Positions 5,271 through 56,659 of a stretch of DNA of 64,000 nt are shown here, piece after piece; within the stretch, counting starts at the first letter, position 1; every line of letters starts with the position of its first letter. The notes under the pieces were generated by a model. That model was not told where the DNA came from. It saw only the letters and a program-made list of their open reading frames with translations, and searched no databases. The stretch is from Isoetes taiwanensis (taxonomy: Eukaryota; Streptophyta; Lycopodiopsida; Isoetales; Isoetaceae), in contig JAJEKV010000011.1 in NCBI GenBank assembly GCA_021234155.1, positions 2,253,888 to 2,317,887 on the forward strand. The letters are read 5' to 3'. The position numbers and the translations under genes are program-made.

Positions 5271-5275
5271 GATGA
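5271..5275. repeat. Target-site duplication, left (GATGA)
   Basis: GATGA directly precedes the 5' LTR and is repeated at 18171-18175 directly after the 3' LTR. Five bases is normal for Ty3/gypsy integration. Confidence 0.9.
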
Positions 5276-6837
5276 TGTGACGTTCCAGGCATTTATACGG
5301 TATACGTATGCATGTCGGGACACGTCACTGAGATATAAGGGGGTAATTGTCTAAGTGGAGGTCAACCACAATGGTTTTATTTAGCTATGTTAATAAATCC
5401 ATTGTGGATAATTATAAAGTATTTGGCCTAATTACCCTAATTAATCTAAATTAGTTAATTAGCAACAACAAGGGGGCGCCACCTGGCCCAAATCGATTGG
5501 CCAGGGGGGACCTTCCATTTTGGGCCTAGGAAAAGGGGTCCTGCCCCATTTTGACTCCCAAAATTCGAATTGGGAGCTAAGGAGGTGCAGCAGTTATCAG
5601 CCAAGCTTGAGTTATCATCAACCACCCGCCAGCCTAGTGTGATGGACCCATACCGAGACCATGGCTCCAGCCAGGACACGGGTTAGTGTGTAGATAGCTT
5701 GGTTTTCCTAGTTAGTCGTAGGATTAACCCTTGTTTGAGTAGGTTAATCTCTATTTTTATGTTTTATTCAAGTTATGGATGGATGGATGTATTAGCTTAG
5801 TTCTTTCCGTTCCTATGGTGTTGTATGGGCTAAAGGGGTGGGTAGAGACCTAAAGGCCATCTAGCAGTAGAGATGCTCCTAGATAGAACCCCTAAAACCT
5901 CTCAGACTTGCGGCTGCCATTGCACAAGAGCCTACCCGGCCGTGGATGCTATGATGTGGTTCAAAGACCAAATAACGGGTATGAAGGTGAATCGGGGGTG
6001 GGGTCCCACCTAGCGCGGCTACGGGACTCCTACAGTGTGCTAGACTTATAGCCAGTCACTGTGTGTGGGCTGGGTATGGGTCTGACACTCCCTGGGCCGG
6101 AGGGTGGGAGCCTTTATGGCCGCCCTGGGCTCGAACGGGTTGGTGAGCTGACCTTTAGATTTAGGGGAGTAAGTCGGGTACGGATGCGGGGGTCACTAAG
6201 GGGGCACGTATCCTCTAGCGCACCCAGGGATCCGTCATACCCGGGGAGGGGACGCCTCCCTGACCTGCCTCATCGGACCGGGGAGATGTAACCCGGAGTA
6301 GTCCTGAAGGGTGATTCCTTGGGATTAAGTCTCCCGGAGGGCTACAAGCACGCCATAGCATGATACGGCCTATCCGCAAAGTGTGCACAGAGGGGGCGGA
6401 TGGAGTGGACAACCCTAGCCATTGTCTTATGCCAGCCAACGCCATGTTATATCTCCGCCTGCATGATATCTTGAGACCCCCGCCGCCGGGTTGATCCCTT
6501 GGAGTCTGAGCCCGGGGTAGTGCCTGTTATTGTGTTGTTTCATGTTGTTACGTATGGATTATCTTTGCCATGTTGATGAGGATGGGCCACCCTTCGTGGT
6601 GGTATATTATTTGCATTATGATTGGATGCTAACGTATATGTATGCTTCACATTTGTCATAGGATTTCCCCATAGAGGGCGTGGGGGCTAATGACACCTCC
6701 GTGATCCTCGCCCGGATACTTGGCCATCCCGAGTAGTCCGAGCATGACGGAGGGCCTTGCCGTGATGATTTAGTCGCCATGGGAGGGGAAGTCCCGTATC
6801 TATACGATCGGAGCATCGTATGGACTCGAGCGCCATA
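5276..6837 (+). repeat. 5' LTR of the H3-carrying chromovirus
   Basis: 1562 bp, the same length as the 3' LTR at 16609-18170 and nearly identical to it. It starts TGTGACG; its last bases (cgccata) are a degenerate form of the CGTCACA seen at the 3' LTR. Differences between the pair are mostly clustered short indels, for example around 5905-5925 and 6478-6492. It contains a 76-codon open frame (6061-6291) that is identical in the other LTR but resembles no protein. Confidence 0.93.
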
Positions 6838-6840
6838 TAG

Positions 6841-6860
6841 TGGTATCGAGCAATGGTTAC
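6841..6860 (+). other. Candidate primer-binding site (tRNA-iMet type, degenerate)
   Basis: tggtatcgagcaatggtta begins three bases after the LTR. The common plant site for initiator-Met tRNA begins TGGTATCAGAGC, so this differs by a missing base and a few changes. Confidence 0.7.
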
Positions 6861-7265
6861 GTGAACCAAAACTTTACCGACCGCCATACTCTAACTTCGT
6901 TAGTTGAGGATGAAAAAAAAAAAAAAAACTCTTGTCTAGAAAGTTCCAACTCACACCGTGTGTTAGTTGGCTTAGTATGGGACGAATGACCGGGTTGTAG
7001 AGATAGTGTTTCTTAGCGAAGGGGTTAAAGTTGGAAATTAGGGTTAGAAACTTAGATTTTGTTTTCGCCATACCTCCATCCTCGTAGCTCGGATCGACCA
7101 GATTATTGCTCCAATGGGTCGAGCGTACCCGAAATACCCTAAAGGAGTCGTCGTCAGGTCGCAAGGGGACCAGCAGAAGGTCAAACCCAAGGGCGGCGCT
7201 GACAGGGTTTGGACGACTTAGAACGCGGAAAGAAACACGTATAACCGGGTCAGCGCCGCTTCGTA
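6861..7265 (+). other. Element leader, no gene
   Basis: Untranslated leader between the primer site and the first accessory gene, with an A16 run near 6914. No supported ORF. Confidence 0.5.
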
Positions 7266-7283
7266 TTTTCGCGCGTATATTTT
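7266..7283 (+). promoter_or_regulatory. Candidate internal promoter: E2F-like site plus TATA-like element
   Basis: TTTCGCGC (7267-7274), a match to the E2F consensus TTTSSCGC, is directly followed by GTATATTTTT. It lies about 240 bases upstream of the ATG of the H3-fusion gene. E2F sites drive S-phase genes in plants. Whether it is functional is not shown by sequence; the TATA-like part merges into a T-run. Confidence 0.35.
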
Positions 7284-7523
7284 TTTTTTTTTCCGCCGTA
7301 TTTTTTTAAGAAAAAAAAAAGAAGTTTAAAATTTAAAATTTAAAAAGTTAAACGGCCGTTTCTTTTCGGGAGTTCCCTTCTTGTATACGCTGCCGCCTGC
7401 TCGCTTCGACGCCGCCATAGCCGCCAGACCCAAGCGCCCCAAACCTTGTCTCTCCTTTTTCCAGCGGTTCCCTCGTGACCTAGCGCCACCTTTACTGCTC
7501 TCCTAAGCGCCAGCGCCTTACTT

Positions 7524-8805
7524 ATGGCCATCACTAAGACCACTTTGGACCCTTCTAGCCTTAATATACCCCAAATCTATGCCATGATCGCGAAGTACAT
7601 GGCCACTGACAGCGACGTGGTAGACATCCTTCTGAATGAGCTAGTACAACGTTTTAGTGATAACCTAAGGATCCCTTATTCTATATTCCACTTCTGGGCA
7701 GCTTTTTGATCAAAATTTGAATCTCCATCAGCTGCCATATACCATGGTCGAGCAGCCTGACCAGGTTATGGTGTTGATCAAGTTTTATCCACCAGAGTGT
7801 GAAGAACACTCTGAGGAGGGCGCCATTCAGCTTGAGGCGGCCCGTATCCGAGTTTTAGCTCAGGTGGACGACAGACGGGAACTAGAGAGGGCAGATACAG
7901 ATACACGGAGTAAGGAGTATAGATATCTTGGCCATGGGTGGGCTATTATTAACCATGAAGCATTCGAGCTACCCCCATATGAGTGGCACGACGCTTCCCA
8001 GGGATTCATTTGGGGTGAAATCCCTGATATCAGTCTGCAATACCTGATACATGTCCAGATGGATATGGCTCGTCGGCCCGACCGCTATCAAGCCGAATTG
8101 ATCCGAAGGATCGCGGCTCGGCGGTACAGCCAGGTGGAAGCTGATATGGAACGTGCCCGTCAATTCCGGGAGGAACAGGAAGGGGCACAGCAGGAGCGGC
8201 TACATAAAGAGCAACAGGATAAAAACCAGCAGGACCTACACCAGCAGCCAGATAAACCGGGCCAGGAGAACCAGCAGGGGCCTCAACAGGCGGATGAGCC
8301 ACCGAGGAAACGACGGAGGAAGTCCGTGGCCCATAAGTCCGGCAGTCAATATAGAGAGAAGTTGAAGGTTGTCGGCACCATTGGGAAGAATACGAGTGCC
8401 AGCAGGAGACAGGAACGGGTGGATGCTTCCCACTCCCACCCTGTTACCGCGGGTAAGACGGTACCACAGAGGAAGGGACCGATCCCCAAACCTGCTCCTC
8501 CGAAGAAGCCCCATCGGTTCAGACCCGGTACCGTGGCCTTACGGGAGATCCGTAAGTATCAGAAGACCGCGGAGCTTTTGATAAGGAAGCTACCCTTTCA
8601 GAGATTGGTTCGGGAAATAGCACAAGAATTCAAAACCGATCTTCGCTTCCAGACCTTTGCGATTTTGGCTTTACAGGAGGCTGCTGAAGCCTACCTCATA
8701 GCACTTTTTAGTGACGCAAATCTTTGTGCGATACACGCAAAGCGAGTCACTATAATGCCAAAGGACCTCGCCCTTGCCCGGAGGATTCGGGGAGAACGTC
8801 CATAG
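7524..8805 (+). CDS. Retrotransposon-encoded histone H3 fusion protein (one frameshift near 7703-7707)
   Basis: The ATG at 7524 opens 61 codons that stop at 7707. Removing one T from the T5 run at 7703-7707 joins that frame to the long frame through 8805, so one base is in excess; the protein would be about 425 residues. N-terminal part: unrecognised, then a Glu/Gln-rich probable coiled coil (about 8130-8290), then a basic stretch PPRKRRRKS resembling a nuclear-localisation signal. From 8503 ([10 protein letters not shown]) to the stop, 100 codons align without gaps to H3 K36-A135, with 14 differences by my count. The alpha-N helix, three core helices, K56, K79, C110, H113, R116 and D123 are kept. 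The ARTKQTARKS tail is absent. Loop 1 is normal length, so it is not CENH3-like. The gene lies upstream of gag and has no introns. A chromatin role is inferred; the H3 homology is certain. Confidence 0.93.
8503..8802 (+). other. Histone H3 core domain (histone fold) within the fusion gene
   Basis: Codons for H3 positions 36-135. Differences from plant H3.1: S57T, T58A, D77E, S86T, S87F, V89I, A90L, V101I, G102A, E105S, T107A, I124L, Q125A, A135P. F41 is as in plant H3.1; L90 is as in plant H3.3; F87 fits neither. No stop or frameshift occurs in these 100 codons, although other ORFs of the element are broken. Confidence 0.97.
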
Positions 8806-8972
8806 TGGCCCGAGGGCATTTTTAATGTATTTAATTTTGCTATATCAATAGAGAAATCCGAATTTTGCTATCGTGTCTTTGTTAGTTGCATTTTAATATT
8901 TCTTTCAAAAATAAAATAAAATAAAATAAAATAAAATAAAATAAAATAAAAATAATAATAACTGATAGTGAA
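8806..8972 (+). other. Spacer between first and second accessory genes
   Basis: Noncoding and AT-rich. It contains an (AAAAT)n microsatellite at about 8908-8950 just before the candidate promoter of the next gene. Confidence 0.6.
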
Positions 8973-9024
8973 TGCTGACGTCAGCATAAGGGTTATAAAT
9001 ACTTTAAAGACCGTTTTAGGGTTT
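8973..9024 (+). promoter_or_regulatory. Candidate internal promoter of second accessory gene
   Basis: TGCTGACGTCAGCA (8973-8986) is a perfect 14-base palindrome containing the bZIP core TGACGTCA. It also contains ACGTCA, the hexamer known from plant histone promoters. TATAAATA follows at 8994-9001. A telo-box-like TTAGGGTTT is at 9016-9024. The ATG at 9078 lies about 77 bases past the TATA element. The spacing is that of a normal plant core promoter; activity is inferred. Confidence 0.5.
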
Positions 9025-9077
9025 CACTTTCACTTTCAGGTTTCGTCCACTCTTCCTCCTCCTTCCTTCCAGCGCAT

Positions 9078-10478
9078 ATGGCCGCCATGGATCTGCTTGC
9101 TTGGTATCAGGATGGGGAGCACTGGGATCCCCAAGTGGCCTTCGACCTCTTAGAGCCTTTCCTCTCCCAGCATATTGACCTCATCTCGAACATGCAGAAA
9201 CACCCTGATTATGCTGAGTTTCTGCAATTTTATGTAGAGGAAATGCTTCCTCTCTGTATTCCTTTGGGGGAGCCATCTAAACTCTATATTGACCGAGCAG
9301 TAGTCAAGGAAATGCTTGGTGGGGGAAAGAGAGGGTATGAGCTACTCCGAGGCAAGCTCCGGTGGGCTCGGCGACCCCCGGTCGTCAGTCATGAGGGGCA
9401 AGAGTTTCTTGAAGTCTCTTTTGCTCTCGCCATTCTTATGGACCAGTATGTGGAGGACGAAACCTTACCTGCAGAGAAGGGCAAGGGGCCAGAAATGTCG
9501 GACGAGGAGGAAGACGAGTGGGTTGCCATGGACGATTTTGTCCGGTGGAAACAGTTGGCGCAGGAGATGCCGCCACGCCGTGAGGAGGGTGGGCGCTTGG
9601 CTGGGTTAGATGTTATCCCGGTTATATATCATCAAGGACACGAGTTCCTTCTATTGGAGGACATCATGTGGACATACCACGTAGTGGCGGGACTCAGAGG
9701 GAAAGAGAAGGCGCAAGTTCTCTATGAGCTCGCTGAATACTGCATGGATGACTTCATCGACTTCACGTCCGGGGATCTTCCTCCAGAGGTACAGCAGATA
9801 CTTCAGTTCCACCATCAAACTATTGAGCCGGCTGAGACACTCCTCCAGCTTAAGGAGCTAGTGCTGCAAGACCCTCCGTCTCAGCCTCCTCCAGAAGCCT
9901 TTATGGCTACGGGACCTTCAGTCCCAAGTATCAACATGGTTGAGCTTCCCTCACATTCGGATGAGGAAGGAGAAGACCTTTACCACAACCCTGCTCATTC
10001 TAAGGAAGATAGGGAGGAGCTCATGGAAGAAGAGGTTCCTAAGAACCTAGAGAAGGAGATTGACACTTCAGCTTCTTCCCTAGGGAGAGTGTCCGGGAGT
10101 CCTCTTACCCGTTTCTTCCTATCGGCTTTTAGGCAGGGACAAGTCCTTTTTGTGGCACGTGACTTGGGGCCAGAAGCAGAGGCTTCATGGTGGAGCCTCC
10201 GCGCTTTGTCTACTCTTGCAGGCCACAAGAAGCTATCGTACCACATGCTCACTTATGTGTTGGTTCGACGGGATCTCGCCCTGGCAGCTTTGGGTCAGGA
10301 AATTGCACCCTGGATGGACATCAAACTCCTCGCGGCAGCTCCATTAGCAGTTGCATATTCTCCCGAGGTTGTTTCCCTTGCAGCTGCTACAGTTGATCCG
10401 GGCGTCACATTACTACGACATCGGTCACCGCCACCACCTCCTACACCTATGGAAGAGGATGAGGGGCCTAGCTCCTAG
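9078..10478 (+). CDS. Accessory protein 2 of the chromovirus (unknown, acidic, 466 aa)
   Basis: I do not recognise the family. The frame is intact from ATG 9078 (second ATG at codon 4, good context GCCGCCATGG) to TAG 10478. Residues 101-111 (PVVSHEGQEFL) and 181-191 (PVIYHQGHEFL) match each other exactly 80 residues apart, suggesting an internal duplication. Acidic segments lie at about 139-152 (MSDEEEDEWVAMDD) and about 295-330. The C-terminal third has an Ala/Leu-rich probably helical stretch and ends in a Pro-rich then acidic tail (PPPPPTPMEEDEGPSS). It sits between the H3-fusion gene and gag on the same strand. Acidic segments are common in histone-binding proteins, but a chaperone role is only a guess. 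Confidence 0.8.
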   Translation: MAAMDLLAWYQDGEHWDPQVAFDLLEPFLSQHIDLISNMQKHPDYAEFLQFYVEEMLPLCIPLGEPSKLYIDRAVVKEMLGGGKRGYELLRGKLRWARRPPVVSHEGQEFLEVSFALAILMDQYVEDETLPAEKGKGPEMSDEEEDEWVAMDDFVRWKQLAQEMPPRREEGGRLAGLDVIPVIYHQGHEFLLLEDIMWTYHVVAGLRGKEKAQVLYELAEYCMDDFIDFTSGDLPPEVQQILQFHHQTIEPAETLLQLKELVLQDPPSQPPPEAFMATGPSVPSINMVELPSHSDEEGEDLYHNPAHSKEDREELMEEEVPKNLEKEIDTSASSLGRVSGSPLTRFFLSAFRQGQVLFVARDLGPEAEASWWSLRALSTLAGHKKLSYHMLTYVLVRRDLALAALGQEIAPWMDIKLLAAAPLAVAYSPEVVSLAAATVDPGVTLLRHRSPPPPPTPMEEDEGPSS

Positions 10479-10681
10479 TTTATTGTGTTAGGTATTGTAG
10501 GAGTTTAGCCTTTGGCTACTCAACCCATATGAGCTATGCGTTCATGTTCTTCAAGCAATTTTGAATACAATTCAATTGTTTTTTTCCTTCAATACTTGTT
10601 TTTTCTCTCCTTTGGAGTTGGAAGTATAAGGAACAATTCAGTTATAGTATATTCATTCTTGTCGACATGCATTTATGGGAT
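10479..10681 (+). other. Spacer after accessory gene 2
   Basis: T-rich noncoding DNA between the stop codon of accessory gene 2 and the acidic third ORF. No clear motif. Confidence 0.4.
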
Positions 10682-11174
10682 AGAGGAAGATGAAGAGGAA
10701 ATACCGACGACCACAAGAATGACGACGAGCCACCACCGAATAAAGCTATGATGATGAAGAGGATGGCGAGTATGACGAAGGTGAGGACGGCTATGATGAA
10801 GAGGATGGCGAGTACGATGACGGTCATGACGGTTATGGGGAGGATGAATCAGGGGATGAGGGCGAGCCCTATGACCCCCTTAAGGGTCTTGAGATTGTTA
10901 ATATCCTTCGAGTACGCCTTCAACCATCTCAAAAGAAACCCTCCAAAGCCCATGGAACTATTGGGACATGACCAAACAGGAGGCCTTTATGGAAACCACT
11001 GATTTCCTTTGGCAAATTTTCTATGCACTTCGCGACCTCTTCAACTTATTAATCATTAGTCCCACCCTGGATTATCAATATGTGATTATTCAGGCATGGG
11101 CTTGCTATAAAATGGTTAGAGCCGTACGGGAGAGTATTCGCTACTCCATTTTGTACCCCTTTGCCCACATTTAG
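10682..11174 (+). pseudogene. Accessory ORF 3 of the chromovirus: Asp/Glu-rich protein, frame-broken
   Basis: Coding-like sequence that changes frame about three times. It begins IEEDEEEIP (10682), continues DDHKNDDEPPPNK (10706), then a long acidic Gly/Tyr-containing run (10747 to about 10870) made of repeated DEEDGEY-type units, then PYDPLKGLEIVNILRVRL. The last frame (10968-11174) reads TDFLWQIFYALRDLFNLLI and ends YPFAHI. No family recognised. The tract resembles the acidic tails of histone chaperones in composition only. Its position next to an H3 gene makes that notable. Low complexity alone could also explain the composition. Confidence 0.55.
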
Positions 11175-11308
11175 ACCGGATGTCCACAGTCTTTGTGTAG
11201 CTACGTGTGTATATTTAAAGTTGCCTTGTGCATAATCATCAGTTTTGGAGGCATAGCCTCGAGTTTCGATGTAATAGTCTGTACATGTAATCACGACCTC
11301 TTTTTCTT

Positions 11309-11314
11309 AATAAA
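11309..11314 (+). terminator. Candidate poly(A) signal before gag
   Basis: AATAAA lies 135 bases after the end of accessory ORF 3 and 62 bases before the gag ATG. It fits a separate transcript for the accessory block, but single AATAAA motifs are common by chance. Confidence 0.35.
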
Positions 11315-11375
11315 ACTGTTTTCTTAAGTTCCGTTGTTACGTCATATTTTTTTCTTGTGTTGTCATACCTGGGAT

Positions 11376-12695
11376 ATGTTGCTTATCACCTCCTCTTCCT
11401 ACTTAGACGGCGCACGTCCTTGGACAACACCTGTTCAACCGGGTCGTCTCACCCCAGACCAGGAACTTACGATTATGAAGCGCCAACTTACAGAGCTCCA
11501 GGCATATGTCTTCCAGCAAAATCACCCACAGGAGTATGGACCCGAGATTCCGGCTCCAATAAACGTGCCGCCACCACCGGCGCCTCCACTGGCACCTCCA
11601 GCTGCTAAGGCACGTCGATCCAAGAGGACACGCTCTACTTCCTCTTCTGATGCAGCCTCGGAGTCCTCTGACTCCTCTGATTCCTCTGAGGATGAGGCTG
11701 ACCATGCTAGGGCCAGTAAAAAGGATTATCAAAAGACCGTTGATTCCGCCATTACGAGTATCTGGAAGAATCGGAAGCTTGCGCAGTTTTCGGGTAAAAC
11801 TCGAAATGGGGTTGACGCAGAGTCATGGCTAGATGAAATGCAAGAATTTGGAAAATCATACGGAATGACTGAGAAAGATATTGGCAAGGTCGCCACTACC
11901 AATCTCACAGGTTCGGCACGGATTTGGTGGAAGGGATATGCCCGTTCTCATGGGCTTACCAGGGGTAGGTGCCGTTACAAAATTTTTGCCAAGGCTTTCA
12001 AATCACACTATGTGCCCAAGGCTCATCGCTGTCAGCAGATTCAGACTTTTTACCGCTTGGAGCAGAAAAACATGACTGTCCAAGCTTATACCAATGAGTT
12101 TATGCGCCTGCGCTTGTATGTACCGGGTATCAATGAGCGCCGGGCAGTTGAGGGTTACATAGAGGGTCTATCCCCTACTCTCAAAAAAATGGTTCGGGCT
12201 ATCGACCCTAAGACAGTTGCGGAAGCTGAGGCAAAGACACTCAGTCTTGAAGAGGACACTCCACGGTATCAGGCCCCACGAGCCTCTTCATTCAACCAGA
12301 ACAAGAGCTATACACCTTACCGGGGGCGCTCGCCAAGCCCAGGGCCTCCTGCCTCTACTGCTTATCAGAAGCCTGATAAGAAGGTTTCTTTCTCGGTACC
12401 AGATAAGCCTACCAACGCCGCAGTGCCTTTTAGGGATATTCTCCAAGCTATTCCTAGGGACCAGCCGAACAGCTTAATGAAGGAGAAAGCTTGTTATAGG
12501 TGTTTTTCACCAGCCACCGTATGCGTGGAGTGTCCTTTATTACCCGTGACGGTCCAAGCTGCTTTAGCCGACATGGATTGGGAAGAACCACCAAATGCCG
12601 GCGAGGAGGATGCGCCTGATTATATCACCGGTGAGTCTCATATTTTCGCTGCTGTTGAGACGGGCCAAGCCAACCAACAAATGTTTCAATCGTAA
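11376..12695 (+). CDS. gag: Gag polyprotein of the chromovirus
   Basis: Structural capsid protein. The open frame reaches back to 11334, but the first ATG is at 11376; a second candidate is the Met of MKRQLTELQAY. Order: Pro/Ala-rich N terminus, a Ser/Asp/Glu-rich segment (SSDAASESSDSSDSSEDE), then the retrotransposon Gag core with SGKTRNGVDAESWLDEM, TGSARIWWKGYAR and FYRLEQKNMTVQAYTNEFMRL. The zinc knuckle is degenerate: CYRCFSP is followed by ATVCVECP, and the His is missing. A TAA (12693-12695) separates Gag from protease in the same frame, so Gag-Pol would need readthrough or the stop is a mutation. Confidence 0.9.
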   Translation: MLLITSSSYLDGARPWTTPVQPGRLTPDQELTIMKRQLTELQAYVFQQNHPQEYGPEIPAPINVPPPPAPPLAPPAAKARRSKRTRSTSSSDAASESSDSSDSSEDEADHARASKKDYQKTVDSAITSIWKNRKLAQFSGKTRNGVDAESWLDEMQEFGKSYGMTEKDIGKVATTNLTGSARIWWKGYARSHGLTRGRCRYKIFAKAFKSHYVPKAHRCQQIQTFYRLEQKNMTVQAYTNEFMRLRLYVPGINERRAVEGYIEGLSPTLKKMVRAIDPKTVAEAEAKTLSLEEDTPRYQAPRASSFNQNKSYTPYRGRSPSPGPPASTAYQKPDKKVSFSVPDKPTNAAVPFRDILQAIPRDQPNSLMKEKACYRCFSPATVCVECPLLPVTVQAALADMDWEEPPNAGEEDAPDYITGESHIFAAVETGQANQQMFQS

Positions 12696-13400
12696 TCTCT
12701 ACGGTTGGGTCAAATAGATTGTAAACCTTTTGTCATTCTTATGGATACGGGTAGTACTCATAACTTTGCATCTCCTAGAATGGCAGAAGTCTTACAGATT
12801 ACACCTCTTAAGTCTAAGCCACGTTACGCGCTGGTGCCGCACGCTATACTGGGCCTAGGTATCAATTTGAATATTCGCTTACTGGGGCACCCGCTTGCTC
12901 TCGGGCGGAAATAATGGATATTGGTCGGTATGATCTCATTGTGGGGATGGAATTCTTGGTCACGCTAAAGCCAACATTGACCGTGTGAGAAACGGAAGTC
13001 ACTTTCAATGCGCCAATGGAGCCCGAAGTTACGATAGCGTAAGCCGCTTAACCCTATTATGCAATGTATTTCATTACGCCAATTGCATAGGGCTCGTGAA
13101 GTCACAAGTTACAGGCATGATCCGACTTGCTTCATGGGAAGCCAAGCCTAAACAGATAAGGCCCTTGATGCCTTACCTCCGCAATAGCCGCAATCCTTCT
13201 GAATATCATGATCTTTTTCCCGATGAAATCCAAAGCAGCTACCACCTTCGGGGTGTGGAATGTGAAATTGCTTTGGAACCGGCACGAAGCCTACCAGCAA
13301 GGCCCCCGTGATCGGATGAGTCTCCCGTGAGTTAATCGAGCTTAAGACACAAATGCGGGAAACTCCTTAAGTTAGGCTTCATCGCCTAGTGTATCACCCT
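12696..13400 (+). pseudogene. pol: Pol: aspartic protease and linker to RT, frame-broken
   Basis: In the Gag frame after the TAA. It contains the catalytic motif LMDTGSTHNF followed by ALVPHAILGLGINLNIR. The frame stops at 12914, and coding-like sequence resumes in another frame (DIGRYDLIVGMEF near 12915-12960). The linker to RT is further shifted. Confidence 0.75.
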
Positions 13401-14334
13401 TTGGAGCCCCAATACTTTTGTTAAGAAAAAGGATGGCACCATGCGAATGTGCATTGATTACCGCCAATTAAATAAGCACACCATTAAGAATCGCTATGCT
13501 TTACCAAGGGCCGACGATCTTATGGATCAGTTGCAAGGGGCTAAATATTTCTCCAAGATTGATCTTCGCTCAGGTTATCACCAGATACGAATTAAGGAGG
13601 ATGACATCCATAAGTCTGCTTTTCGCACTCGTTACGGCCATTATGAATTTACAGTCATGCCATTTGGTCTAACCAATGCGCCGGCCACCTTTATGCGCCT
13701 TATGAATGATGTCTTCCGGGAATATCTCGATGACTTTGTTGTTATCTTCTTTGATGATATCCTGATATATAGTAAGACATTGGAAGATCATGCACGGCAC
13801 CTTCGCTTGGCATTGCAAAAGCTACGACGACATCAGTTGTTTGCCAAGTTCTCTAAGTGTCGTTTTGCCACCACCAAGGTGGATTATTTGGGTCATATTG
13901 TATCCGCAGATGGCATAGCTACTGACCCAGCTAAAATCGAGGCAGTTAAAGAATGGCCCATTCCAACCAATGTGTCTGAGGTTCGCAGTTTCCTGGGCTT
14001 GGCCGGGTATTACCGTAAATTTGTCAAGGATTTTGCCAAGCTTGCTGCACCTCTTACTGATCTGACCAAGCATGATAAAGTCAGGGATTGGATGGCCCAT
14101 TGGAAGGATAAGGTCCAGACTGGCTTTCAAGCCTTAAAGGATGCTCTAACCACAGCTCCTGTCCTTACAATGCCAGATCCTGAAAAGGATAAATGGGTTG
14201 CTACAGATGCTAGTAAAATAGCTACTGGGGGTGTTCTAATGCAAGAGGGGCGCCGTTTGCTTATGACTCCTAAAATGAATGATGCCGAAAGCAACGATAT
14301 CCTACGCATGACCGTGAGTTGCTTGCGGTTGTAA
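13401..14334 (+). CDS. pol: Pol: reverse transcriptase
   Basis: Copies element RNA into DNA. The open frame from 13441 contains [49 protein letters not shown] and the catalytic box [13 protein letters not shown]. The usual box is Y-x-D-D (YLDD or YVDD); here the first residue is Phe. The thumb and connection follow ([13 protein letters not shown]), then the first RNase H acidic motif [16 protein letters not shown]. The frame shifts near 14265-14334. Confidence 0.9.
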
Positions 14335-14560
14335 GGGCTTTGGCGATTTGGCGGCATTATCTACTTGGAAGGCGATTTCAGTTAGACACGGATCACCAAA
14401 GCCTCCAAAGATATTTTCACGCAACCTCATCTCAATTTGAGACAAAGACGATGGATGGAATTCCCGAAGAATATGATTTTCAGGTCATTTATAAACCGGG
14501 TAAGCATAATGTGGTTGCTGACGCCCTTTCCAGACATCCATTAGTCACTCGCACGCATTG
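14319..14560 (+). pseudogene. pol: Pol: RNase H, C-terminal part, in shifted frame
   Basis: Continues RNase H in a new frame: [31 protein letters not shown], then VIYKPGKHNVVADALSRHP, the usual junction to integrase. The frame change near 14265-14334 separates it from RT. Confidence 0.85.
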
Positions 14561-15660
14561 TAATGCTATATCCACGCTCTCTAGTGAGTTTGGGAAACAG
14601 ATTCAACAAACCCTTCCTACGGATCCAGAATTCCAGGAAGTATGGCAGAGTCTATGTAAAGAAGCCAGAACGGATAAGGAGAGAAACACCTTCCGACACT
14701 ATAAGAAAGAGGGTGAACTCCTTTATTATAAGGACAAGTTGTGTGTTCCTGCGACATCTGGAGTTCGGAAACTCATTCTCCATGATACACATAACAGTCC
14801 AATCGCAGGACATGCGGGATTTATGAAAACATATTTCAAAATCCGCTCCAGCTATTTCTGGCCAGGCATGAAAAAGCACATTGCCAGCTACATTAGACAG
14901 TGCCAGACTTGTCAGCAAACGAAAGCAGAACAGTTGCGTATTCCGGGTGAATTGCAACCCCTCGACGTACCCAATGCCAAGTGGGAAGTTATTACCATGG
15001 ATTTTATCGTGGGGCTCCCGCGTACCTTAAGGGGGTTCGATGCCTTAATGGTAGTGGTCGACAAACTTTCTAAAATGGCACATTTCTTGCCATGTCGCAC
15101 CACCTGGATAATTTTGCATTGATAATTTTTGCTTTTCACTAAGGAAGTTTTCCGCTTACATGGGATGCCCCGCACCATTATCTCGGTCGGGATCCCAAGT
15201 TTGTTAGTGCATTCGGAAGGATTTCTTTAGCACTATATAGACTAAGCTTGCTATGAGCACGCGACTTATCACCCTCGCATGTGATGGCCGACCCAGAACG
15301 CACCAATCGCATTATTGAAGATATGTTGTGTAACTATGTCCGAACAAACAATCTCAATGGGCGGACTATATTTATTTGGTGGAGTTTGCCTACAACAAGT
15401 ACTAAACAGAGTCTTCTAAGATGTCTCCTTTTATGATCAACTACGGCTATCAATGCCTCACACCGCACCGCATTATAATCCAGTCTCAAGGTGGAGGTTT
15501 CTCGCCAGCTTGCTTGCTGATATGCAAGGCTTAGTTGAGGAGGTTCGAGCATATTTGTTAGCCTGAGAGCTCGGCAAAAGAGTCTAGCGGATCGGCACCG
15601 CACACCTCGAGAGTTTCAAGTGGATGATTCCGCTTTGGCTTAAGATAAAGGTGAAACAAG
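14561..15660 (+). pseudogene. pol: Pol: integrase, zinc and core domains, frame-broken
   Basis: The HHCC zinc domain reads HDTHNSPIAGHAGFMKTY and YIRQCQTCQQTK. The first catalytic Asp is in VITMDFIVGLP. The frame breaks near 15118. The second Asp region (near 15188) and the Glu region (near 15300, RTNRIIED) are readable only in other frames with small deletions, so this copy has no continuous DDE core. Confidence 0.85.
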
Positions 15661-15672
15661 CCAAGCTTAAAA

Positions 15673-16104
15673 TTGGCAATTGTAAGAAGCTTGCACCTCG
15701 ATGGGCGGCCCATTTCGATAACGGAACGGATAGGGCCTCGTGCCTACCGGTTGGATCTACCAAGACATCTAAAGATCCATAAAGTCTTCCACGTGAGTCT
15801 TCTCAAGAAGCATCATCCAGATCCCGAAGAGGTACTTGATACACCAACACTTCTGGAAATGACTGAAGATCAGTTGGAAATTGTTCCAGAAGCTCTACTT
15901 GATCGTGCCTATAAACAAACCCACCGAACTCAGATTCTACAATATTTGGTCAAGTGGAAACATTTACCCACGGAGGACGCGACATGGGTCCTTAAGGCGG
16001 ATTTGGATAAGACTTACCCAGACTTTATGAAGGAATGCCATGGCCACACCATCCACGATGACATCATCTCCAACTCGGATGGTAAGCAGACTGTTATAGT
16101 GTGA
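15673..16104 (+). CDS. pol: Pol: integrase C-terminal GPY/F module and chromodomain
   Basis: Starts with the GPY/F-like module (ITERIGPRAYRLDLPRHLKIHKVFHVSLL written here in two parts: ITERIGPRAYRL and HKVFHVSLLKKHHPD). A chromodomain follows (LEIVPEALLDRAY, then ILQYLVKWKHLPTEDATWV, ending DKTYPDF). Only the Trp of the KWK position of the usual three-aromatic methyl-lysine cage is clear; the first and third cage positions are non-aromatic, as in plant group II chromodomains. It probably guides integration to certain chromatin. Its coexistence with an H3 gene in the same element is the notable point. Confidence 0.85.
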   Translation: MAIVRSLHLDGRPISITERIGPRAYRLDLPRHLKIHKVFHVSLLKKHHPDPEEVLDTPTLLEMTEDQLEIVPEALLDRAYKQTHRTQILQYLVKWKHLPTEDATWVLKADLDKTYPDFMKECHGHTIHDDIISNSDGKQTVIV

Positions 16105-16595
16105 CAGGGGTCATACTAATGTGACCTCCAGGAGTCATGGAGGCATCCTAGGTGGGAAACTGTGCATGAAGGCATTCCTGATAGGACGCAATCGTCTGCG
16201 GCTATGATGGGACTAAGGCCCTTCCTTACGCCGAGATGCATGCAAGCCCTAGACATGATAGGACCCTTGCATTCATATTTCATGTTCTTTAAGGGGGTGG
16301 TCCCTTCAACCACATTATTTAACTTAATTCTTAACACAAACCGACGCGTCTCAGGGGCCAGTAGGAGCTCCCCTTAAGTTTGGCTTTGAAGACTAAAGGC
16401 CTTGTGTTATGGGCCCTGCTTGTGTTTTGGATTCCATTTGTTTTACCTTGTGTTTGCAAGTCGGTTTCGTTTAAATTTGTGTCTTTGAAGTGGATTTGGT
16501 TTATCGCGTGTAAACCTTCGTTATTTTCATAAATAAGTACTTTTGTTTTTTTACTCTTCCCTTCACTACTCTAATGCTGAGGACATCATTAATTC
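16105..16595 (+). other. Element 3' untranslated region
   Basis: Noncoding sequence between pol and the polypurine tract. Recognisably related to 49560-50045 in the second copy of this family, including the phrase 'atgctgaggaca' just before the polypurine tract. Confidence 0.6.
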
Positions 16596-16608
16596 AAGAG
16601 GGGGAGAA
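16596..16608 (+). other. Polypurine tract
   Basis: AAGAGGGGGAGAA directly precedes the 3' LTR and would prime plus-strand DNA synthesis. Confidence 0.85.
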
Positions 16609-18170
16609 TGTGACGTTCCGCATTTATACTCTGGTAATGCATATGCATGCCCGGGACACGCCAATCGAGATATAAGGGGTAATTGTCTAAGTGGAGGTCA
16701 ACCACAATGGTTTTATTTAGCTATGTTAATAAATCCATTGTGGATAATTATAAAGTATTTGGCCTAATTACCCTAATTAATCTAAATTAGTTAATTAGCA
16801 ACAACAAGGGGGCGCCACCTGGCCCAAATCGATTGGCCAGGGGGGACCTTCCATTTTGGGCCTAGGAAAGGGTCCCCGCCCCATTTTGACTCCCAAAATT
16901 CGAATTGGGAGCTAAGGAGGAGCAAAGCAGTTATCACCCAAGCTTGAGTTATCATCAACCACCCGCCAACCTAGTGTGATGGACCCATACCGAGACCATG
17001 GCTCCAGCCAGGACACGGGTTAGTGTGTAGATAGCTTGGTTTTCCTAGTTAGTCGTAGGATTAACCCTTGTTTGAGTAGGTTAATCTCTATTTTTATGTT
17101 TTATTCAAGTTATGGATGGATGGATGTATTAGCTTAGTTCTTTCCGTTCCTATGGTGTTGTATGGGCTAAAGGGGTGGGTAGAGACCTAAAGGCCATCTA
17201 GCAAGAGAGATGCTCCTAGATAGAACCCCTAAAACCCACAGACTTGCGGCTTTGTGCACAAGAGCCTACCCGGCCGTGGATGCTATGATGTGGTTCAAAG
17301 ACCAAATAACGGGTATGAAGGTGAATCGGGGGTGGGGTCCCACCTAGCGCGGCTACTGGGGACTCCTACAGTGTGCTAGACTTATAGCCAGTCACTGTGT
17401 GTGGGCTGGGTATGGGTCTGACACTCCCTGGGCCGGAGGGTGGGAGCCTTTATGGCCGCCCTGGGCTCGAACGGGTTGGTGAGCTGACCTTTAGATTTAG
17501 GGGAGTAAGTCGGGTACGGATGCGGGGGTCACTAAGGGGGCACGTATCCTCTAGCGCACCCAGGGATCCGTCATACCCAGGGAGGGGACGCCTCCCTGAC
17601 CTGCCTCATCGGACCGGGGAGATGTAACCCGGAGTAGTCCTGAAGGGTGATTCCTTGGGATTGCGTCTCCGGAGGGCTACAAGCACGTCATAGCATGATA
17701 CGGCCTATCTGCAAAGTGTGCACAGGAGGGGCGGATGGAGTGGACAACCCTAGCCATTGTCTTATGCCAGCCAACACCATGTTATATCTCCGTCTGTTGA
17801 TATCTTGAGACCCTGGCTGTCAGTTGATCCCTTGGAGTCTGAGCCCGGGGTAGTGCCTGTTATTGTGTTGTTTCATGTTGTTACGTATGGATTATCTTTG
17901 CCATGTTGATGAGGATGGGCCACCCTTCGTGGTGGTATATTATTTGCATTATGATTGGATGCTAACGTATATGTATGCTTCCGCTGTCATAGGATTTCCC
18001 CATAGAGGACGTGGGGCGAATGACACCTCCGTGATCCTCGCCCGGATACTTGGCCATCCCGAGTAGTCCGAGCATGACGGAGGGCCTTGCCGTGGTGATT
18101 TAGTCACCATGGGAGGGGAAGTCCCGTATCTATACGATCGGAGCATCGTATGGACTCTGGGAGCGTCACA
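16609..18170 (+). repeat. 3' LTR of the H3-carrying chromovirus
   Basis: 1562 bp, starts TGTGACG and ends CGTCACA (perfect inverted ends), followed by the GATGA duplication. Nearly identical to the 5' LTR, implying a young insertion; most differences are short indels at CAG/CTG/CCG-type sites. Confidence 0.95.
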
Positions 18171-18175
18171 GATGA
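18171..18175. repeat. Target-site duplication, right (GATGA)
   Basis: Matches 5271-5275. Confidence 0.9.
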
Positions 18176-18502: not shown

Positions 18503-19074
18503 GTGAGTCTAATAGTGTATTGGTGTTTACATGGTATAAATAATTGATGATAAGGAGCATTCTAGATAGCAAGGCCGATAGGATTCATCGTAGTTTAATC
18601 ATGCCATGTATGTAATGCGATTGCCCTATATGATTCGTCTTGATAGGTAAATAACATTTTCCTTGCTCATGTCATGTATGTGTTAAGGCTACAACCAAGA
18701 CAAATGAGTATATGGTAATGATACAGCTATTGTATGTATTTTAAATAGGGAGATATATCATGTTGGCCTTTTGAGCATGAGTCATGGAGAAAAGTGTATG
18801 GCTATTAAGACAGGGGTTGATTTTGTTAGTTTAGTTATTAAAGAGCTCAAAAAAAGATCTATAAGGACATGATGGAATTGAAGGTTCTGATTTCCAGTTC
18901 CACTTTCGTATCATACACTTTATCTAGGTTTCAGTTTCACCTTGTCTACGCATTATACCCTCTCATTGCCTTGATTTTTATGCAGCTATGCAAGACACTG
19001 GCAATGATGATCTTAAGCGAAGTTTCGTTAAATTGGAAAAATCTTACTTCATTTAAACAACTTGCAATATGTGC
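18503..19074 (+). repeat. Dispersed repeat copy 2
   Basis: Second copy of the 2188-2727 repeat, same orientation, slightly longer because of an internal stretch ending ccttgatttttatgcag. Unclassified. Confidence 0.7.
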
Positions 19075-19202
19075 GAAGGAACCAGAGTTTTGTTCATTTG
19101 AGGCAAAACATGATCTTATTCAGTAGTACGATGTATATAAAGCAGTAAAACAATCACAAGTAGCACTGAACAACAAGATATTCACATAGACATTCGCAGA
19201 AA

Positions 19203-20703: not shown

Positions 20704-22254
20704 CCAACTTTTAAATATAAACATTTAGATTTTTGTAATAGATCGATTGGATGTAAGCTTAGATAGAGTAATGAATTCCTAGTAAATATATGCTCCTTTG
20801 TGCGTAATTGTCAATTGGACCTGAAATGATATGATAACACGACCCAAATAGGTTAAATGGTTTATGTAGATTGATTTCTCATTATTACTTCAAATGAATC
20901 TTGTCAAATACCACTATTACAACAAATGCATCCTGCCAATTCCACAACTTAATGCTGTTACTAAACAGACTTAAATGCCTAATAAATTTGACTTAACCAA
21001 AGTCTTCTTGTGTGCGCAGCAACAATAGAAGTTTAAAAAAGTAAAGAAAAAAGAGACCTCTATTACATTGCATAACCCGACCACAGCCCCTGGCGTGCCT
21101 TTTTGCTGGTTCTTTTTTTTAGCAGGGTTGCCTAACCCAAGCTGCCCACTTTCCTGCATTTCTAGCTATGGCACGTGTCGTGCCATGTCATCTGTAATCA
21201 TTTTGAGTCGTCCGATTCTGTAATTTCGGATCGTAGGGCCAGGGAAATTAGAAAAGCCAAGTAATTTTTGAAGCGGCTCAGGTCCGACTGGAAGGAAGCC
21301 ATGGCGGATGGTCGATGCCCATCAGTGGATCTCCAGCAAGGGATAGGGTAGTGAATATAAGCGGGCTCAGGTGCTTTGCCTTCTGTTTTACCAGCACCAC
21401 CCTATCCGATTTGCCCAGCTACAATTACTAATCTAGGCAGAAGGTGATTTGTTTCCTCATTCTTGTTTCTTAATTCCGGTCCAGACAGTAGCAGTACAAG
21501 AAGAAGGTAAAACTAGCAAATCATTCTGGCAAAGCTCATAGGAGATGAAGGTAAAACTAGCAAATCATTCTGAAAAAGTTCATAGGCTGAGTGTGGTGCT
21601 GGAACTTCTATGACAAGTCATTTTGATCGCCATTACTGTGGAAAGTGTGGCCGCACATATGTATAGCAGAAGGCTGGATGAGATTAGCCTAAATATTTAT
21701 GGTTTTGTATTGAGTCGTGGAATGACCGCCACTTGTAGGAATTAAGCAAGGTTGTTTCATGTATGTTGATACCATTGCTTTGCCTCTTGAGTTATATACT
21801 ATGAAACAGGAGTATTGTTTTACCAAAACATTGAAGCAGATATATTCCTACAATGATTTGCAAATTTATATTACAATGATACAGATTTATGTTCTTACAA
21901 AAGGTGGAACATAATGTTTTGAGCAATGATCTTCAGATGCAGAGAGTCCTGTAACATTTACAGCGAGCAACAGATGGAAAAGAACATGCCTAACCATGTT
22001 TTTCTAAGAAGCATCTCATCTTATTGTGTCAGAGCTTTAGTAGATTGTTCTATTTTACGAAATTAGTTTGGGGAGGCTTCCAATTTGCATTACCACATTG
22101 TTTGAATCATCTTATATTATAAATGTTATATCGTAATTCTTGGATTGGATCAAGCCCTAATTTGAATGGCCGAGATCATCTAGGTGCATTCAAAGGCCGA
22201 GATTTCTTGCACAAATTCAAACCACCGTGATTGATTATATTTTGATCTATTATG
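20704..22254. other. Intergenic, no gene recognised
   Basis: AT-rich noncoding DNA. Around 21176-21260 (minus) there is a region resembling the target site of the chromovirus (about 5190-5275 plus 18176-18190). Confidence 0.45.
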
Positions 22255-22870
22255 GGAAAAGGGTGAAGAAAAAGGAGGGGGGGGGGAGGAGCAGGAAAAG
22301 GGAGGAGGAAAGAGAGAATGTGAGGGGGCAAAAAGGCATGGGGAAAAGGGAAAAAGAGAAAGGGAAAATGGTGGGATAAGAGAGGAGGAAAACACATGGG
22401 AAAAGGGAAAGGGAAAGAAAAAGAAAAAATCAAAAGGGAGGGTGGAAGGCACCTGAGAAAAGGGCACGATGGAAAGGGGAAGAGTTAAAGGGGAAAAGGG
22501 AAGGGGAAATGGCATAGGAGAAAGGGAAAGAGTAGGGAAAAGAAGAAAAAAAAAAGAGCATGGGAAAAGGAAAGGGAAAAAGAGCATGGGAAAAAGGAGA
22601 AAAAGGGAAAGAGTGAGGAAAGAAGAAAAGGGAAGGGAAAAATGGCATGGGAAAGGAAAAGAGAGAGGGAAAGGGAAGGGAAAAGGGGCATCGAGAAAAG
22701 GAAAAGAGTGAAAGGTTGGGAAAATGAGGAAAAGGGCAGGGAAAAGGGGGAACATGAGAAGGGAAGGGGAAAAAAGGCATAGAAAAAGGGGGAGTGAAAG
22801 CAGAAAGAAAAAAAAGAGGGGCAAAGGAGGAAATGGAACCTGGAAAAAGGGCATTAGACAAAGGGAAGGG

Positions 22871-23154
22871 GGGTCAAAGCATGGAGGTGGGGGACACTTT
22901 TTGTGTCAGCGACACATGGTGCTTAGTGGGTGCTTTTTGGGGCTGTTTTCTTTGTGTTTTTGAAAAATACTTTTCTTTTATTTTTTTGATATTTTTCCCT
23001 GAAACGCATTCATATTACGCCTTTGGAATACAAAATTTCAGCTTCATCGGAGTTATAGGAAAAAAAAGATAAAAATAAATAAAGTTTTTAGCATTAGGTG
23101 CTTAGGGGGTGCTTGGCTGGCGCAAAAATGCCCCCCAGCTCCATGCTTTAACCC
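22871..23154. mobile_element. MITE-like insertion within the purine tract
   Basis: A 284-bp non-purine island with imperfect terminal inverted repeats: left gggtcaaagcatggaggtgg, right end (reverse complement) gggttaaagcatggagctgg. Similarity continues inward for about 40-50 bases. No ORF. No clear target-site duplication because the flanks are low complexity. Confidence 0.55.
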
Positions 23155-24010
23155 AGAGGGAAATGAGAAAAGGGAAGGGGGAAAGGGCAAGAAAAAAAAA
23201 AAGGAAACAGGAAACGGATGAAGAAAGGGAAAAAAGGAAGCGAAAAAGAAAGACATGGAAAAAAGAAAAGGGGAAGAGGGAAAGGGTGGGGGGAAATAGG
23301 AAAATGGGTATAAAAAAAAAAGGGAAAGAGAAAAAAATATGGGAAGGGCATGGGAAAAGGAAAGGAAGGGAGAAAGGGTGAAGGAAAGGTAAAAAGAGCA
23401 CAGGTAAAAGAGAAAGAGGGAAAGGATCGAGAAAGGAGGAAAACGGAAAGGAAAAAGTCCATCATGAAAAAGCAAAGGGAAAAAGGACGAGAAAAGGAAA
23501 AGAGGGAAGGGAGGAAAAGAGAGGGGGATTCAGGGAATAGGAGAAGGGTGAGGAGCAAGGAATTGAACAAGAGGAAGAGGAAAGGGGAAAAGGGCACGAG
23601 AAAAAAAGGAAGAGAGGAAAGACGAAAAAGAGCAGAGGAAAGGGGAATGTAGAAAAGGGAAAAGGAGGAAAATGGGCACATAAAAGGGGTAGAGAAAAGG
23701 GAATGAAAAGAGGCATAAGGGAAGAGAAAAGAAAGAAGAAGGGAGAAAGCAAAGGGAAAAAGGGCACGGGGAAAAGCGAAAGGGTAGCGAAAGAATTAAA
23801 AAGGAAGGGAAAGGAAAAGAAAAAGGAAGGCGGAAAGGGGGAAAGGTAAGGAAAAATGAGCATGAGGAAAAGGGGAGAGGGAAATGGGAAAAGAAAAGCA
23901 GAAAAGGGCAAAGGATAACGAGGAAGAGGATGGGAAAAGAAAGAAAAAGGGCACATGAAAAGGTGCGGAAAAGAGAATGGAAAAAAGCCATGGAAAAAGG
24001 GAAACAGAAA

Positions 24011-24052
24011 GGGAAAGGGAAAGGGAAAGGGAAAGGGAAAGGGAAAGGGAAA
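24011..24052 (+). repeat. (GGGAAA)7 perfect hexamer array
   Basis: Seven uninterrupted GGGAAA units. Fits the G3-N3 pattern of an intramolecular G-quadruplex. Confidence 0.9.
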
Positions 24053-24330
24053 GTAAAAAGGACAAGAAAAAGGAAGGGGAAAAAGAAAGGAAAAAATGGG
24101 AAGGGCGGGGAAAGGATGAAAAGAGAAGGGAAAAAATACGTCAGAAAAAAAAGGGGAAAGGGAAGGAAAGTGAAGGGAGAAGGGGGTAAAAAAGGAAAAA
24201 AGAAGACGTGTAGGAAAAATAAGAAAAAATGGGAAAAAAAAAGGAAAGTGTATAGGGAAACGAGGGAAAAGGGAAATGCAGAATAGAGCAAAAGGTAAAA
24301 GGAAGAGGAAGGGTGTTGAATGCACAAAAG

Positions 24331-36159: not shown

Positions 36160-36420
36160 AGGGTAATACCTTGGGCATGCTTTGAGCTTCAAGCATCCGG
36201 TCGAATGCATCTAGTAACAAGGCCAGTATTTCAACAAGCATTCAAATATAATTTGAATCATATAAATATAGAGATAAAACAGCAAAAATGACTCACTTAT
36301 AAAATTTGTGAAGAATGTTTTGCTGGCGTGAACAGGAACGAATTGGCCATTTTCTAAGCATCAAAAACATAGCCTGAGCATTTTGCAACACCTAAAATGA
36401 AATTTTAACATAAGAAAGGC
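36160..36420 (-). other. Possible exons of an unrecognised minus-strand gene
   Basis: On the minus strand, a stretch bounded by tttcattttag and gtgagt (about 36393 down to 36304) reads VLQNAQAMFLMLRKWPIRSC without stops. A second short stretch bounded by ttactag and gtatta (about 36210-36170) follows, but the frames do not join cleanly. It may be a decayed gene or chance. Confidence 0.2.
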
Positions 36421-36429
36421 TCTCGATTC

Positions 36430-37182
36430 TTCATCTCATACCATAAGAATTTTGGCTAGGAAAGATAGAGAAGCATGAAGAATAGAAGATGAATGGACTT
36501 TCAATAAGCCCATCTTAGAGATCCGGAGTAATCGCATCTTGCCGATCATGAAAAGAAAAAAATCTGACTTGTTTTTAATCATCCTTAAACGATTGCATGT
36601 CTAGAGCACCACCTGTAAATACCAAAAATAGGTTGGGATCTGATAATCCTTGTCCACAACACAAAATTTCGAAATCATACCAAAGGAACATCCCGATTTT
36701 TCTCTAGTCGGAACTTCTTCATGACAACCAAAACCAGTATAAATCTTAGGAAATCGACTTTAAAAAATTCCAAAAACATTTTTAGCCAAACCTGAAATTC
36801 CCAAATTAACAAGATTGATAGGAAGGGTGTTCATAAACAAATCTTGGGACAACAACAACTTTTGTACAAGAAAACACATGGAGTTTTTAACATGGTGGTG
36901 AACATTTACAAGTCATATCTTGAGAAAAGTCAACCCAGATGACTTATGGGTTTTGGAATATATCTAGAAAGGAATCCAAAATTTGTCGACTAAAAATAAA
37001 GGCGAGAAAAACAATGGTGTGATGGCAACGGCCAATGGCCGAAGAAGCAGTAGTCTTAGAGAAGGCAAGGTAGTAGAGGTACAAGATAGAAAGTAAACAC
37101 CAAAGCTTGAAACCTCCTCAATATAACATCACCTCAAGATAGCATCAAAACCATTAATTATAGACTGAGTAAGTAAGAGGCG
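36430..37182 (+). other. LINE upstream region (probable 5' UTR), unit A
   Basis: Duplicated at 42727-43481. No ORF. It leads into the ATG at 37183. Confidence 0.5.
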
Positions 37183-40147: not shown

Positions 40148-40348
40148 AACAGTATTCAAATTAAATACCAGATATTTAAAAGACCCAGATTTTGTGGAGA
40201 CCTGCAAAAGCATATGGCAATCGGCTTTTAGAACGGGAACTGGTATGGAAACCATGATAACAGCTCTCTCAAATATTAAAAATTACGCCAAAAGCTGGGG
40301 TAGAGCGAAAGTGCAAAAAGAAAGGGAAGAACCGGATTTCCTTTATGG

Positions 40349-40556
40349 CAACACACTAGTTCCTTAGCAATGTGGTCTCGAGTTTCGAGACCTTGAATCC
40401 TTTTCGGTACTATTGGGGTCAAATCCCAACAGATGCAATGTAAGGTGGTTGGGGGCAGGGCCCAACCAAGCAATGTAGTGTGGTGTGTGGTCACATGTCC
40501 AGTTGGATGCTGCCTAGTGGCGTGACGTTAAAACTACTATCTATCTATCTATTTAT
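40349..40556 (+). mobile_element. SINE-like insertion present in unit A, absent from unit B
   Basis: Unit B reads straight across (around 44362-44372), so this roughly 200-bp block is an insertion. It contains gtttcgagacc, one base from the Pol III B box GGTTCGANNCC, and ends in (CTAT)n-like sequence. An 8-base inverted repeat (ggtctcga...tcgagacc) surrounds the box. Likely tRNA-derived SINE; target duplication not clear. Confidence 0.6.
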
Positions 40557-48034: not shown

Positions 48035-48039
48035 CATAA

Positions 48040-56640: not shown

Positions 56641-56659
56641 ACCGGGCTTGAATTCCCGT

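Follow-up and report, generated by a model that had tools for sequence, protein, structure and literature searches.

A histone H3 core fused to a long N-terminal region is carried, under strong purifying selection, by a chromovirus lineage of Isoetes taiwanensis

A Ty3/Gypsy LTR retrotransposon of Isoetes taiwanensis carries, upstream from gag, an open reading frame (ORF1) that ends in a histone H3 core, and across the copies of the element purifying selection on this core is very strong. Judging from this selection, it is close to certain that ORF1 is functional for the element. As regards its function, we propose a selected, element-encoded H3 variant that would pair with host H4 and change chromatin, probably against silencing, a reading to which we give somewhat less than an even chance. 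All the coordinates refer to the window, i.e. the whole stretch of 64,000 nucleotides that was analysed, and all the element features described below are on its forward strand.

The element of the window spans positions 5276-18170 and is bounded by the 5-mer GATGA, found at 5271..5275 on the left and at 18171..18175 on the right, which we considered as the target site duplication. The 5′ LTR (5276..6837, the right end being judged by eye) starts with TGTGACG and the 3′ LTR (16609..18170) ends with CGTCACA. The two LTRs are 96.0% identical (blastn), with a K2P distance of 0.034 over 1550 aligned columns. Flowering-plant substitution rates, 0.7-1.3e-8 per site per year, are a rough guide only; with these values the window copy was inserted about 1.3-2.5 million years ago. 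Three bases past the 5′ LTR, at 6841..6851, the sequence reads TGGTATCGAGC, which is like a primer-binding site, presumably that of the plant initiator-Met type. Downstream, Pfam matches were found to gag (ORF at 11334..12695, Ty3 capsid/Retrotrans_gag, PF19259 1.2e-17 and PF03732 5.1e-14), to reverse transcriptase (RT) with the start of RNase H (13441..14334, PF00078 5.3e-36), to the remaining RNase H and the integrase zinc-binding domain in another frame (14319..15122, PF17917 and PF17921) and to the C-terminal, SH3-like part of integrase with a chromodomain (15673..16104, PF24626 and PF00385 1.6e-9). Since these domains come in the order gag, RT, RNase H, integrase zinc finger and chromodomain, the backbone of the element is that of a chromovirus; by its LTR pair with a short target duplication, its gag followed by RT-RNase H-integrase and its chromodomain, the element is classified as a Ty3/Gypsy chromovirus. 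An earlier note on this DNA had described LTRs, target duplication and gag-pol in order around the H3 gene, and the GATGA at both ends and the Pfam series confirm this. The same note had called the chromovirus complete, which is right for the architecture and not for pol, which in the window copy is divided among several frames; in the scanned pieces of this decayed copy there was no Pfam match to protease or to the integrase core.

Other repeats surround the element. A direct repeat (2187-2731 and 18504-19076, 90% identity over 577 aligned columns) flanks it while lying outside it. A fragment of a related element, 74% identical in DNA to the pol end and accompanied by LTR-like pieces, is at 48035-51773; within the window it showed no ORF1 or ORF2 similarity. 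Nearby duplications with 97-98% identity occupy 36408-46526, precisely 40556-42706 with 44371-46526, 36408-37679 with 42704-43995, and 39982-40349 with 43996-44363. A purine-rich tract is present at 22250-24250 (89-93% purines in six of eight 250-base steps), and a further retroelement-like region covers 51919-63999, where the direct repeats are of 86-92% and 56888-57412 encodes an RNase H domain.

The H3-bearing ORF had been given as a single frame at 7524..8805. Such an ORF does stand before gag, whereas its continuity from 7524 does not hold: in the window copy ORF1 is broken near 7707 and reopens in another frame at 7717-8805. Precisely, three-frame translation gives a first part of 61 aa (MAITKTT..., 7524..7709) ending at a stop, then an open frame with the N-terminal region up to K36 (7717..8505), then the H3 core, corresponding to H3 residues 37-135 (8506..8802), with its stop codon at 8803-8805. 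The core matches Pfam PF00125 (E 2.4e-41) and H3 chains of the PDB, the top solved-structure match being an H3.3 chain (182 bits, 1.9e-52). Over residues 37-135 the alignment to plant H3 is ungapped, with 14/99 differences from the H3.1 type and 14/99 from the H3.3 type, the same number that had been reported from the sequence at first reading. The canonical N-terminal tail (ARTKQTARKS...) is absent, and a long, other region is in its place; ORF1 is thus an H3-core fusion and not a full H3. A diverged core and a longer loop 1 are the marks of CENH3, and we rejected this identity because the core is ungapped and 85/99 of its residues are identical to canonical H3.

We searched the assembly of the Isoetes taiwanensis genome (1,658,258,908 bases in 1110 contigs) for other copies. 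Searching with the H3 core brought up 8939 first-look candidates, of which the best 150, the window's included, were scored: each of the 150 matched the element H3 at 90-100% identity, the alignments covering 96-98 of 98 residues, and six had an internal stop, in a sample that is biased towards good H3 since only the best candidates were scored. Three other counts escape this bias or lessen it. A codon pattern for the element-specific peptide TFAILALQ (Phe being accepted also at the Leu places) occurred at 559 genomic sites, against none for the reversed-pattern control, and at 2352 sites with up to two mismatches (control, 290). The corresponding angiosperm H3.1 motif, SSAVAALQ, gave seven sites and its control three, which is uninformative. 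Two further searches started from ORF2, thus independently of H3 (7423 first-look candidates, best 91 scored, window's included), and from RT (33162 candidates, best 132 scored); for both, we considered the places in the part of the genome spanned by the first 100 of the 559 pattern sites, i.e. 14 for ORF2 and 25 for RT. In 13/14 ORF2 places, including the window copy, the pattern lay on the same strand at a distance of 315-425 bases upstream; in 11/25 RT places, again with the window's, it lay within 6.5 kb upstream, nine of the 11 being at 4.57-4.81 kb. In the remaining 14 RT places H3 may be absent, the peptide changed or H3 displaced; with the pattern upstream in only 11/25, not every related element need carry H3.

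Fifty copies were fetched, namely 30 loci from the scored H3 list (L001 being the window) and 20 others, each about 10 kb long, picked from the same list by favouring long open frames. The order ORF1 N-terminus, H3, ORF2 was found in 30/30 loci and in 20/20 further places, the N-terminal match being of only 27 residues in one copy (L018). Among the 20 longer pieces, 19 had LTR-like sequence upstream (only 95 bases in one case) and 16 had gag and/or RT downstream; the RT match was on the opposite strand in L031, and ORF2 was wholly or partly displaced in L042, L047 and L048. We considered ORF1 as intact if it was continuous from its ATG, with at least 300 residues before H3 and a normal end. 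This was the case in 23/50 copies and not in the other 27, a proportion that is not a genome-wide rate because loci were chosen for long open frames. A search for other H3-carrying copies had been proposed with the first description, and it has its answer in the 559 sites and in the 49 copies that share the ORF order of the window's. Two other routes for the H3 gene were considered and rejected. A nested DNA transposon or a chance insertion finds no convincing terminal inverted repeats and meets the same order in 50/50 copies; for an H3 transduplication of the hAT type, positions 6800-11400 contain only short inverted pairs, none of which flanks the H3 ORF, and the H3 is inside the LTRs.

The region before the H3 core, an orphan domain, has a length of 262 residues in the window's open frame and of 306-327 residues in 22/23 intact copies, the other one (L036) having 440 with a frame that opens further upstream. 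The whole protein has accordingly 404-425 residues in 22/23 intact frames and is longer in the remaining one. Many columns of the alignment of the copies are invariant in this region. A coiled coil and an NLS-like stretch had been noted here: the basic stretch PPRKRRRKS is present in the translation, at about 8300-8326, while for the coiled coil there is one long helix only (residues 121-174) in a low-confidence AlphaFold model, its mean pLDDT being 41, and 35 in a second model, both poor. The start M-A-x-T-K is found in 19/23 intact copies (e.g. L048:2538-3500), the motif A(R/H)K(S/T/A)G ahead of the H3 core in 23/23, and, among the four residues preceding the core, K36 is replaced by R in 19/23. 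The first two motifs recall H3 tail sites, in the K4 and K9/K27 contexts, and may serve as a lead. No relative of the N-terminal region was found at E ≤ 10 among 217 candidates of a protein search, nor at E ≤ 1 among the 8000 candidates of a 13-copy profile. Against viral contigs there was no match for the N-terminus, ORF2 or gag. Pfam with loose thresholds gave scattered, weak matches for the N-terminus and none at E ≤ 10 for ORF2, and the structure-sequence search for relatives gave one PDB match at E 0.97. PADLOC found no match, and no homology was seen between the ORF1 N-terminus and ORF2. The search with the whole ORF1 protein returned 7393 matches; nine inspected among the 120 listed were fusions with at least two canonical H3 segments.

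ORF2 (9078..10478, 466 aa) is a second extra ORF of the element beside ORF1, located between the H3 ORF and gag; it is an orphan and is intact in the window. It represents a second unexplained protein of the element family, present in the fetched copies. Between H3 and ORF2 there are the palindrome TGACGTCA (8976..8983), found in 38/50 copies, and a TATAAAT at 8994, with TATAAA in only 16/50 copies; a pyrimidine tract ends near an AG ahead of the ORF2 ATG in the subset of copies inspected. Because of these three features ORF2 could be expressed from a promoter of its own or through a splice acceptor. In the 520 bases upstream of ORF1, in 22 copies, we counted E2F-like motifs in four (1.2 in shuffled sequences), an octamer in one for each of two patterns (0.2-0.3) and TATAAA in 12 (3.7), and we draw no regulatory claim from these counts.

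Selection was evaluated on the aligned copies. For the H3 core, the 1225 pairs from 50 copies had a median dN of 0.027, a median dS of 0.94 and a median ratio of 0.032 (range 0-0.37, four saturated pairs being excluded), and a maximum-likelihood codon model gave a dN/dS of 0.050 for the 49 stop-free copies and of 0.041 for the 23 intact ones. The ORF1 N-terminus had a maximum-likelihood ratio of 0.161 and pairwise ratios of 0.112 in the 23 intact copies (45/253 pairs saturated) and of 0.148 in 39 copies (183/741 saturated). For the other parts the pairwise ratio was 0.110 for ORF2 (23/50 copies usable, nine of these with an internal stop), 0.114 for gag, from only four copies, and 0.179 for RT (11 copies, five with a stop, quartiles 0.05-0.37). 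The 50 H3 segments are all distinct as DNA and encode only 32 protein sequences; one of the 50 segments has an internal stop, while 85% of them would be expected to have one after random substitution to 0.2 per site, in copies that were picked by H3 similarity. We judged that sampling by H3 similarity lowers dN, yet could not by itself bring the ratio down to 0.03 when dS is near 1. The distances of the N-terminus and of H3 are correlated (Mantel test, Spearman 0.86 and 0.91; 0/2000 permutations as high), therefore both parts were inherited together. By the flowering-plant rates given above, again as a rough guide only, the median H3 pair separated about 36-67 million years ago.

The H3 could be a passenger, i.e. 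a functionless captured fragment that happened to be multiplied along with a successful element, and gene capture is indeed common in LTR elements, according to the excerpts of a review (PMC13317346). We consider it as hardly credible here, since both the dN/dS of 0.03-0.05 at high dS, below that of RT in the same loci for all the wide spread of the latter, and the rarity of stops among the H3-picked copies oppose it. The possibility that neutral decay had marked the H3 part, which would have made it a one-off insertion, is thus not borne out, and the H3 gene is a part of the element: other copies carry it in the same order. Nor is the passenger rescued by repeated replacement from host H3 genes, which the fixed differences described below, the correlated distances, the score gap to host genes and a single clade in the H3 tree (from which host H3s were outside) all oppose.

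Precisely, a canonical H3 query, for which the best 150 of 9022 candidates were scored and intron-containing genes would be missed as wholes, recovered 15 full-length, stop-free host genes with 96-98% identity and 270-274 bits. After these, the score drops to 188 bits, with partial matches of 71-86% identity, many of them at element H3 places. The tree that had been called for was built on 90 distinct proteins, 31 from the element and 59 canonical segments that came from the whole-ORF1 protein search, the host's own H3s being absent. All the element H3s were on one side of a branch with 100/100 support, i.e. one clade against the 59 canonical segments, in a tree built on a small number of columns, in which some canonical rows have long branches and the bootstrap did not settle, and which does not discriminate an H3.1- from an H3.3-type donor. 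A plant H3 gene was apparently acquired by this chromovirus lineage once. Some places (C1102:114653, C1019:5371153 and similar ones) match canonical H3 only over residues 28-134 or so, with an identity of about 79-82%; neither of the two named is in the scored element-H3 list, and this group may form a second element-H3 subfamily.

Along the core, the residue is canonical in all 50 copies at 59/98 positions and in at least 95% of copies at 77/98. R49, K56, R63, R69, R72, K115 and T118 are kept, and R83 is kept in 49/50; we take these to be the main DNA-contact residues of the nucleosome. C110, H113, D123 and L126 are also kept, with R116 in 49/50, and these presumably form the H3-H3′ bundle. 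R134 is canonical in only 20/50 copies, and P121 is T in four. Conversely, S86T, S87F, V89I, A90L, T107A and I124L are fixed in 50/50 copies, and the canonical H3.1 residue is never seen at 11 positions (D77, S86, S87, V89, A90, G102, E105, T107, I124, Q125 and A135). Position 90 is L in all 50 copies, as in plant H3.3. Residues 87-90 consequently read FAIL in 50/50 copies, against SAVA in plant H3.1 and HAVL in H3.3.

The retention of the DNA-contact surface bears on what ORF1 may do. If ORF1 packaged element cDNA in the particle, or formed chromatin on unintegrated cDNA, the DNA-binding residues would be kept as they are; however, H3 is the only histone found in the element, which would thus need to recruit H4, H2A and H2B from the host, and other Ty3-type elements, to our knowledge, manage with no histone. 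This use is rather improbable, even with the precedent of giant-virus and other viral histones, some of which act on DNA in a like manner in the excerpts of PMC9145170. Quite improbable is also that ORF1 disrupts the host histone supply or chaperones, for instance by occupying H4 or CAF-1/HIRA/ASF1, instead of acting in nucleosomes: this would leave the kept DNA-contact surface with no explanation, even though the fixed FAIL patch is at the chaperone recognition site of residues 87-90, which a review of viral histones (PMC9145170) links to chaperone choice, and where some single viral H3s have SAIL or TAIL.

A more serious alternative, which we nevertheless regard as unlikely, is that the H3 core is a tether, by which ORF1 would bind host H4 or nucleosomes with no broad replacement of H3 and would bring the pre-integration complex or the capsid to chromatin, complementing the chromodomain of integrase. 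The large N-terminus, conserved at a dN/dS of 0.11-0.16, looks like a partner-binding module, and a chromatin-reading chromodomain is already on the integrase; on the other side, the whole DNA-contact surface is kept, though tethering does not need it.

The preferred reading is that of an H3 variant acting in nucleosomes. ORF1 protein would be made from the element RNA and enter the nucleus, where it would pair with host H4 via its intact histone fold and be incorporated into nucleosomes, with the greatest benefit on copies of the element that are new or being transcribed; the fixed FAIL patch would tune the time and place of this deposition. Incorporation into nucleosomes is likely. Plants direct H3K9/K27-based silencing at transposons, and nucleosomes in which the normal H3 tail with its K9/K27 region is missing and a large foreign N-terminal domain is present might resist it; it is from these two properties that we propose resistance, and we infer anti-silencing as the preferred use of ORF1. 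The motif A(R/H)K(S/T/A)G and the M-A-x-T-K start weigh against this last step, since they allow a partly tail-like, modifiable N-terminus. The reading as a whole is also weakened by the 27/50 copies whose ORF1 is not intact, by the RT places in which the H3 pattern was not seen upstream and by the variation at R134 and P121. The wider statement that the element replaces host H3 in its own chromatin, by an anti-silencing histone whose co-evolution with it may have lasted tens of millions of years, we put forward tentatively, as possible rather than probable.

If ORF1 does enter nucleosomes, the element offers a natural experiment, a parasite having rewritten the H3 tail while the core stays. 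It would test how far the H3 tail carries silencing, and it might be a counter-defence against H3K9 or H3K27 methylation. Moreover, since a single genome contains diverged copies in their hundreds, selection, the use of individual residues and the specificity for chaperones can be measured directly.

The earlier note knew of no described LTR retrotransposon with a core histone, and we also found none in the full-text literature, among the matches listed, a corpus to which subscription papers and bioRxiv are mostly external. The word histone is absent from the main text of a 2026 review on gene capture by plant transposons (PMC13317346) and from that of the Isoetes taiwanensis genome paper (PMC8566536), and the text of a screen of 121 angiosperm genomes, with 15 extra domains, names no histone in the excerpts available (PMC9289625); a Helentron paper contains the phrase "histone gene capture" (PMC4067079). 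Core histones are known from some DNA viruses and, as captured genes, from fungal DNA transposons, no retroelement encoding one under selection having been found in these sources.

In the excerpts of the papers cited, several systems resemble this one. The AlkB (m6A demethylase) ORF of Phalaenopsis Ty3/Gypsy elements is likewise a fixed, host-derived extra ORF with a proposed action on host surveillance, but its domain is another one and its activity was shown in vitro, whereas the H3 element is known from sequence alone (PMC9289625). H3 was likewise amplified by a mobile element in the hAT transposons of Dothideomycetes, whose copies are RIP-inactivated in Pseudocercospora fijiensis and in several cases potentially active in Pyrenophora tritici-repentis; those carriers are DNA transposons, while the Isoetes case is a retroelement with a fusion protein under strong selection (PMC6710886). 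Manila clam xenomavirus, Dishui Lake phycodnavirus, Sylvanvirus and others also have a single H3, with 73-87% identity in the fold domain, some long and divergent N-terminal extensions and SAIL/TAIL instead of FAIL (PMC9145170). They are, however, DNA viruses, their extensions are of 35-68 residues where given against about 320 in the element, and they are described as single records, selection over many copies being reported only for the element (PMC9145170).

For the proposed function, the closest parallels are two. The bracovirus H4 (CvBV-H4/CpBV-H4) is a core histone of viral origin whose tail is extended, and it enters the nucleosomes of the host and changes expression; it differs in being an H4, from a wasp polydnavirus, and in having experimental support, while the role of the element H3 is read from its sequence (PMC9145170, PMC5423620). 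VANC of the Vandal DNA transposons is element-encoded and lowers the methylation of its own family, which is the parallel to the function proposed here for ORF1; it differs in belonging to a class II element and in recognizing DNA motifs, with no histone mentioned in the passages on it (PMC13317346).
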